Source: Pandoraea horticolens (lineage in GTDB: Bacteria; Pseudomonadota; Gammaproteobacteria; Burkholderiales; Burkholderiaceae). Taken from it: DNA of 64,000 bases. The notes under the pieces are model-generated. The model saw nothing but the letters and a program-made list of their open reading frames with translations. It had not been told where the DNA came from and did not search any database. The first letter of the stretch is position 1, and every line of letters begins with the position of its first letter. The stretch spans positions 248,001-312,000 of the forward strand of contig NZ_CABPSM010000001.1 in NCBI RefSeq assembly GCF_902459555.1, given 5' to 3'. The position numbers and the translations under genes are program-made. This document shows, one piece after another, positions 29,753 through 47,425 of the stretch.

Positions 29753-29829
29753 AGGCTCGTAGCTCAGCTGGTTAGAGCACCACCTTGACATGGTGGGGGT
29801 CGTTGGTTCGAGTCCAATCGAGCCTACCA
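29753..29829 (+). tRNA. tRNA-Val (anticodon GAC)
   Basis: A 77-nt cloverleaf. The acceptor stem is AGGCTCG/CGAGCCT, the D arm GCTC/GAGC, and the anticodon stem CCACC/GGTGG with loop TTGACAT (anticodon GAC, valine GUC). The T arm is GTTGG/CCAAT with TTCGAGT, and CCA is encoded. It has its own promoter and terminator. Confidence 0.97.
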
Positions 29830-40087: not shown

Positions 40088-40246
40088 CTAGAGGAAGAAC
40101 TCGGAATTCAGGAAGAGAGACAGGCTGGGACGTGTGTTAGCAAGGGAAATAAAGCATTGATTTCATGAAATTTATCTACCGTTGCAAGTATGCAACATGT
40201 AGAGACTTACGTAAAAATACATATGGTGCATTGCAGCACGTCGTCC

Positions 40247-40252
40247 TATACT
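40247..40252 (+). promoter_or_regulatory. -10 element of the sRNA candidate
   Basis: TATACT in an AT-rich stretch, about 7 nt before the predicted RNA start. The -35 (TGGTGC at 40224-40229) is weak. Confidence 0.45.
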
Positions 40253-40257
40253 GAATT

Positions 40258-40319
40258 CGTCTCCTCCATGTCTCCTCCTGATATGGATTTAGCCCGCAGC
40301 TTGCGGGCTTTCTTTTTTT
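40258..40319 (+). ncRNA. Short sRNA candidate with two anti-Shine-Dalgarno UCUCCUCC motifs
   Basis: About 62 nt from a TATACT promoter to a clear terminator (AGCCCGC/GCGGGCT, loop AGCTT, then TTTCTTTTTTT). It contains UCUCCUCC twice (40260-40267 and 40271-40278). The second copy lies in the loop of a small hairpin, TCCAT (40265-40269) with ATGGA (40283-40287). The layout resembles sRNAs that expose CCUCC loops to block ribosome sites. The rest of the 281-bp gap (40088-40368) is AT-rich without a gene. Confidence 0.6.
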
Positions 40320-40761: not shown

Positions 40762-41043
40762 TCACGCGGCGGGGGTAGTGTGACCGATGTACGTGAAGCG
40801 CGGCACCGGCCCGCTCTGGGTCATCACCGGTTCGTTCCAAATGCGCAGCAGGCGGGTGCTCATGGGCAAGCCTTCACGTGGATAGAGTCGCGTATAGACG
40901 ACGACCGGTTCATTCGTCTCGTCGGCGCGGGCGATGCCCAGCGCGAGGTAGCAATTGCCTTTGTAGTGACGGTAGACACCTGGGCGGAACGCCTCGATTT
41001 CCGGTGTGGATTCCGCCGACGGCATTGGCATATTCGAATACAT
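40762..41043 (-). CDS. DUF1653 family protein
   Basis: A 93-residue protein whose core FRPGVYRHYKGNCYLALGIA, VVYTRLYPREGLPMSTR and the terminal PRFTYIGH are the DUF1653 pattern, a small beta-rich fold of unknown role. The ribosome site is very strong (AAGGAGGAGA), and its GGAGGAGA is the exact complement of the UCUCCUCC motif of the sRNA candidate 740 bp away. Confidence 0.9.
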   Translation of the reverse strand: MYSNMPMPSAESTPEIEAFRPGVYRHYKGNCYLALGIARADETNEPVVVYTRLYPREGLPMSTRLLRIWNEPVMTQSGPVPRFTYIGHTTPAA

Positions 41044-41111
41044 CGTTCTCTTCTCCTCCTTACGACAACCGGAACCGATCCGGGACAAGAAACGCTCGCG
41101 AAACGCCCGCG

Positions 41112-47217: not shown

Positions 47218-47228
47218 CGCCAGGATCT

Positions 47229-47294
47229 TGCAGGCATCATCAGCCCCGGGGAGGGGCGGTTTGCGAAACGAACGCCGGAGGTATGCCATCTCCG
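47229..47294 (-). promoter_or_regulatory. Fluoride riboswitch (crcB motif)
   Basis: The minus strand reads GGAGATGGCATACCTCC, then CAAACCGCCCC, then GGGGCTGATGATGCCTGC. This closely follows the crcB consensus (GGAGAUGGCAUUCCUCC, AACCGC, GCUGAUGAUGCCUAC) as in the Pseudomonas eriC leader. It lies about 120 nt before the CLC start, where it should permit expression when fluoride is bound. Confidence 0.92.
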
Positions 47295-47425
47295 TGTAGC
47301 AGTCGTCATGCTATCAGGAAGCACGCGCACTCACAATGAGTGACAATTTTTGCACCGGAATAACGAACCGGATCGGCGCGTCGTCAAACTCGACGCAAGA
47401 CGTGACACCGAACGCTCCCCCTACG

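Follow-up and report, generated by a model that had tools for sequence, protein, structure and literature searches.

The window, i.e., the whole 64,000-nucleotide stretch of DNA analysed, contains a short sRNA gene whose features are listed in Table 1. When the window was scanned against Rfam, positions 40258-40316 (+) matched RF02278 (Betaproteobacteria_toxic_sRNA) with 68.3 bits and an E-value of 1.2e-11, the gathering score of the family being 50 bits. The alignment spans model positions 1-64 of 64, i.e., the full length, and RF02278 is the sole Rfam family above its threshold at 40258-40319. The host belongs to the genus Pandoraea in the Burkholderiales, as membership in RF02278 leads one to expect. 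By all the sequence evidence, 40258-40319 is a real, highly conserved sRNA gene.

The fold and the terminator scan both present the two-hairpin layout, with a CU-rich loop hairpin followed by a rho-independent terminator. The predicted fold has a free energy of -24.2 kcal/mol and a z-score of -5.75, and none of 200 shuffles is equally stable. A preliminary description, made from the letters of the DNA, had named a TATACT -10 element, a double UCUCCUCC motif within about 62 nt and a terminator, all of which are present. It had also drawn a 5-bp TCCAT/ATGGA stem closing a 13-nt loop; the predicted hairpin pairs RNA bases 8-15 with 23-30 around the loop UCCUCCU, which is 7 nt long instead of 13 because three extra pairs form. 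Its picture of two anti-Shine-Dalgarno (anti-SD) motifs, one held in a loop, is thus borne out for the loop and only in part for the first motif, of which UCUCC alone is predicted to be unpaired, the last three bases lying within stem 1. In resampled windows UCUCCUCC occurs on average 0.53 times per strand, and a pair at most 20 nt apart was found in 0 of 120 resampled strands.

Table 1. Features of the sRNA locus, with the neighbouring ribosome site and the paralogous copies.
Feature	Position	Strand	Basis or remark
Conserved block TTACGTAAAANTACATATGGTGC	40207..40229	+	Candidate activator site over weak -35 region; only before Pandoraea type A copies
TGC-N3-GCA dyad	40227..40235	+	Near -35; common to other-genus same-core copies and type B
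-10 element TATACT	40247..40252	+	Sequence
sRNA gene, RF02278 member (double-hairpin / toxic sRNA), Pandoraea type A	40258..40319	+	Rfam, fold, conservation
First anti-SD motif UCUCCUCC	40260..40267	+	Single-stranded UCUCC plus start of stem 1; positional counterpart of S17 "Site 1"
Hairpin 1	40265..40287	+	Predicted fold: 8-bp stem, 7-nt loop
Second anti-SD motif UCUCCUCC	40271..40278	+	UCCUCC in loop of hairpin 1
Intrinsic terminator	40291..40319	+	Stem-loop 40291-40309, then U-run; terminator scan and fold
GGAGGAGA ribosome site of DUF1653 gene	41052..41059	-	8 nt before ATG at 41043, gene to 40762; a possible target, though unremarkable
Paralogue type A	window		
Paralogue type B	C5:27550		
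Paralogue type C	C30:16455		
Paralogue type D	C6:247		

The P. horticolens genome carries four RF02278 copies above the cut-off, on four contigs, referred to as types A to D. A covariance search of relatives, proposed in the preliminary description, returned matches at E <= 0.001 in 384 of the 398 genomes of the Burkholderiaceae family (own genome included), 372 of them above the cut-off, and in 0 of 14 control genomes. Of 124 genomes sampled across the class, 31 match at E <= 0.001 and only two lie above the cut-off, one being the own genome. Within Pandoraea, 31 of 32 genomes have a match and 30 of 32 have the type A copy; the exceptions are G010, a 1.2-Mb genome without a match, and G228, which has one type B copy and one weak match only. 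At least 120 public genome stretches contain the exact 31-nt core; the 80 matches listed come from Burkholderia, Paraburkholderia, Caballeronia, Trinickia, Mycetohabitans, Pararobbsia and Pandoraea. Forty further same-core loci were considered, four of which matched window proteins and were counted as Pandoraea. Mobile spread of the sRNA region was rejected: no phage record matched at E <= 0.01, and the 21 plasmid records that did (14 Paraburkholderia, 6 Caballeronia, 1 Burkholderia) all stay at or below 80% of the 131-base query. For two PLSDB records (H18 and H19), the segment that matches the sRNA region overlaps an annotated H-NS family regulator gene.

Across the 30 Pandoraea type A loci, both UCUCCUCC motifs are unchanged, and so is the entire 30-nt core, which runs from the first UCUCCUCC to the end of stem 1. 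Mean column identity reaches 0.99 in the 5' part, hairpin 1 included, and 0.93 in the terminator stem; it is 0.96 both in the upstream block at 40207-40229 and at 40247-40257, compared with 0.63 in the upstream spacer and 0.50 in the downstream non-coding flank; the nearest coding ends have 0.81 and 0.78. The type A sRNA is far better conserved than its own flanks.

The -10 element directly upstream suggests that the 5' end near 40258 is a primary one. At a spacing of 16-18 nt, TATACT has no good -35 partner, and this promoter is absent from the output of the promoter scan. The TTACGTAAAANTACATATGGTGC block differs at 0-3 positions in each of the 30 Pandoraea type A loci and at 8 or more in each of the 110 same-core loci taken as other genera. 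When its first 20 positions were searched in the genome, the single exact site was the sRNA's own and the next best had 3 mismatches, the reversed-pattern control giving 1; no regulon partner for the block came to light in this search. Inside the block, TACGTA and TACATA lie 10 bp apart at 40208-40223 (+), a pair that resembles a response-regulator site.

The copies of each type were compared in 30 of 30 loci for A, 27 of 31 for B, 15 of 30 for C and 16 of 23 for D. All four types have the first UCUCCUCC and begin with the common 5' end [CU]GUCUCCUCCA. Stem 1 is formed by UCCAUGUC/GAUAUGGA in A, by UCCACC/GGUGGA in B and C, and by UCCAUG/CAUGGA in most D copies. The loop anti-SD motif is kept in A, B and C; in the type D loops (L004, L104-L118) it is replaced by GUGUCCUGUCC in 12 of 16, by GAAGUCCUGUCC in 3 and by GUGUCUCGUUCC in 1. 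Some Pandoraea genomes also hold weak RF02278-like copies below the cut-off (L119-L123), with CU-rich 5' ends and other loops.

The upstream regions of the copies differ. The TGC-N3-GCA dyad is found in 30 of 30 type A loci (29 at one place, -32 from the seed), in 79 of 110 other-genus same-core loci (78 at one place, -35) and in the 27 type B loci compared (25 at one place, -68), and is rare in C (1/15) and D (1/16); the means in shuffled sequences are 1.1, 3.9, 3.6, 0.1 and 0.4 for A, other genera, B, C and D, the loci being related by descent, these counts are not independent, and the shuffles show only that base composition does not account for them. By the place of the dyad, it is as if the leader of type B were about 33 nt longer than that of A, and type B may therefore resemble ncS27 of Burkholderia cenocepacia, with a longer, processed form. 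A second dyad, GGG-N4-CCC, occurs in 15 of 15 type C loci at -25/-26 and in 11 of 16 type D loci at -25, and is absent from all 30 A and all 27 B loci. It is also found in 59 of 110 other-genus same-core loci, mostly at -57 (49), hence in a different place from the C/D dyad. Among the literature matches listed, nothing on the subject of this second dyad was found by title.

The TGC-N3-GCA dyad is reminiscent of PhaR sites. PhaR as its reader is unsupported: TTGCRNYGCAMCA has 20 genome sites against 14 for the reversed pattern, although this pattern is narrower than the dyad and misfits the window's own copy, which makes it a weak PhaR test. Of two phasin-domain loci, L244 has a single palindromic TTGCNNNGCA site, near position 874, and L245 has none. 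A passage of PMC4873508 gives no PhaR site sequence. As PMC5688073 reports an upstream motif common to three B. cenocepacia homologues out of four, the TGC-N3-GCA dyad may already be known.

In order to list candidate targets, the genome was searched for GGAGGAGA-N3-11-ATG, which yielded 27 sites against 2 for the reversed pattern, this being the sole control and ordinary SD use being left uncorrected. Twenty of the 27 downstream frames were scanned against Pfam, the other seven being DUF1653 and six frames of less than 50 residues. A Pfam family was found in 16 of the 20, and 11 of these 16 are transporters or catabolic-type enzymes: four transport frames (three MFS, one NMT1-like) and seven catabolic-type frames (aldehyde dehydrogenase, amidohydrolase, LigB, two acyl-CoA dehydrogenases, thioesterase and TPP enzyme). 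The remaining frames comprise one GntR regulator and four others (Mur ligase, SpoVR, CobW and DUF3309). Since these classes were counted without a background set, they are in line with a carbon-uptake regulon and not proof of one. A search for the extended complement, TGGAGGAGAC-N2-10-ATG, found no site in the genome, and neither did its control; hence no ATG gene offers the longest Site 1 pairing at that spacing.

Alphaproteobacterial cuckoo RNAs repress translation via anti-SD motifs, and the preliminary description had placed the sRNA beside them; for 40258-40319, the cuckoo-type label is at most an analogy, and a dispensable one. An analogy is likewise the most that can be said of AbcR1/2 and NfeR1 of alphaproteobacteria, which repress translation by anti-SD pairing (PMC8844928). 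The sRNA belongs to an already described and experimentally studied family of very short RNAs, and is ordinary for this group. In B. cenocepacia, four homologous double-hairpin RNAs, ncS03, ncS05, ncS27 and ncS62, are expressed and predicted to cover the ribosome sites of transport and metabolism genes, with three to five homologues per Burkholderia genome (PMC5688073). Overexpression of ncS27 slows growth (PMC5688073), changed expression has been shown for its predicted carbon-utilisation targets, and ncS27 has been linked to metabolic shutdown upon nutrient deprivation (PMC10987360). The B. cenocepacia homologues are more abundant in biofilm, minimal medium or growth arrest (PMC5688073, PMC10987360, PMC11722255). 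Four family members are reported in Herbaspirillum (PMC7011215), and PMC4603805 provides transcription start site data and credits Northern evidence to Kimelman 2012. Considering Pandoraea sRNA literature, no paper on an RF02278 RNA was found by title.

The closest functional evidence comes from S17 of Bordetella pertussis, positions 2-28 of which are conserved in Betaproteobacteria and which its authors relate to RF02278 (PMC11722255). S17S is Hfq-dependent; deletion of S17 raises 91-92 genes, 70 of which have matches near the ribosome site; and BP2158 is directly repressed via Site 1, with complementary changes in Site 1 and the leader restoring repression. Of four further reporter targets, two go down about 2-fold and two are unresponsive, and overexpression of S17 in E. 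coli affects growth only modestly, as the cells enter stationary phase (PMC11722255).

In comparison with the B. cenocepacia RNAs (57-67 nt; ncS27 has 92 nt and is processed to a short form), the window copy has the same CU-rich 5' end, hairpin with a CU-rich loop and terminator hairpin, yet differs in its Pandoraea-specific upstream block and neighbours. As in S17 and S17S, there are two CU-rich sites, at the 5' end and in the loop, against ribosome sites. S17S differs in arising through RNase E cleavage of a 190-nt precursor; the window copy is immediately preceded by a -10 element, and its 5' end is probably a transcription start. NmsR RNAs of Neisseria also have two CU-rich stretches against ribosome sites (PMC5688073). 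Similarity in Rfam is weak both to NmsRb (19.6 bits against a gathering score of 52) and to anti-hemB RNA (22.9 bits against 49.5).

Taken together, we consider it highly probable (roughly 0.88) that 40258-40319 encodes a trans-acting sRNA of the RF02278 family that pairs with the ribosome sites of a group of transport and catabolic genes and thereby damps their translation. Transcription from a promoter of its own would begin at about 40258 and stop at the terminator near 40319. Its free 5' end UCUCC(UCC) and the loop UCCUCC would pair with purine-rich ribosome-binding sites, i.e., GGAGGAGA and shorter matches, and the pairing would block 30S loading, so that translation of transport and catabolic genes would be damped. 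Hfq is probably involved, and the sRNA probably acts when growth slows or the carbon source changes. For Pandoraea, we infer all of these functional steps, the inducing condition and the target list. On the side of sequence, the reading is supported by family membership, the predicted structure, conservation of the RNA and of its promoter, the four paralogues and the 27 perfect 8-nt sites before an ATG, and the keeping of stem 1 with different pairs in the paralogues also counts for it. Counting against it are the lack of a good -35 element, the two unresponsive targets among the four further ones of S17, the modest growth effect of S17 in E. coli and the 0 sites for TGGAGGAGAC. The reading as a translational repressor given in the preliminary description thus stands as far as a short, conserved anti-SD sRNA is concerned, most likely a broad repressor, which matches the B. 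cenocepacia and B. pertussis homologues.

A general titrator is quite unlikely. Such a "toxic RNA" would pair with many ribosome sites or act as an anti-SD mimic and slow the cell globally, with no specific regulon. The name of the family, the reported growth inhibition by RF02278-type RNAs cloned in E. coli (PMC4603805, PMC5688073) and the slower growth upon ncS27 overexpression are in line with it, as is an RNA that has two anti-SD motifs and little else unpaired. However, S17 deletion raises a limited set of genes and the complementary changes in Site 1 and BP2158 restore repression, while S17 is not similarly toxic in E. coli (PMC11722255). In addition, the paralogues differ in loop and promoter, which would be needless for a pure titrator.

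The adjacent DUF1653 and DUF6726 genes offer a more local reading, with the sRNA as their dedicated regulator. The DUF1653 gene is close and convergent, and its ribosome site does contain GGAGGAGA, the exact 8-nt complement on which the preliminary description had dwelt. Its standing as a special or telling target did not hold: of the 21 Pandoraea genomes in which the DUF1653 start is readable, one has GGAGGAGA there, and in the own genome this site is one among 27 of its kind. AGGAG, which matches the sRNA over a shorter stretch, is still present in 18 of the other 20 Pandoraea leaders. Among the 29 Pandoraea relatives searched, a LIP-family lipase gene adjoins the type A copy in 27 and a DUF1653 match is found in 20, and a contig end truncates one of the nine loci that lack it; in five loci (L071, L073, L075, L076 and L080) DUF1653 was not found, and DUF6726, the bestrophin-like gene and the sRNA are kept. 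The eight window proteins had zero matches in the 30 loci L005-L034 (1.5-kb flanks) and in the 75 listed loci from other named genera; in 33 of the 75, fewer than 1500 bases separate the core from a locus end. Given these results, a dedicated local regulator is very improbable. Elsewhere in the window, a fluoride riboswitch (RF01734) lies at 47224-47302 (-) with 47.1 bits, and a tRNA-Val (gac) gene at 29753-29829 (+).

There is hardly any room for a non-functional leftover terminator with a CU-rich leader, given that 51 of the 62 positions are invariant in 30 genomes, against 0.50-0.63 identity in the non-coding flanks, and that homologues were detected by Northern blot and dRNA-seq (PMC4603805, PMC5688073).

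Beyond damping by a trans-acting family member, the four copies may be related to each other in a way that we put forward tentatively, as an idea with somewhat less than even odds. Pandoraea, and in part the Burkholderiaceae, might possess a multi-input, one-output translational brake, in which four dispersed sRNA genes with an invariant 5' anti-SD seed answer to different dedicated regulators, through TTACGTAAAANTACATATGGTGC plus TGC-N3-GCA for A, TGC-N3-GCA for B and GGG-N4-CCC for C; the replacement of the type D loop by another conserved sequence would then give D a partly separate target set. One 5' seed with differing promoters across the copies is possibly new.

With these results, Pandoraea, whose species are opportunistic relatives of Burkholderia, joins the genomes suited to studying RF02278 sRNAs. 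The 5' seed is constant between the copies; their differences lie in the promoter and, for one copy, in the loop. This variation makes it testable whether anti-SD sRNAs merge several signals into one translational response.
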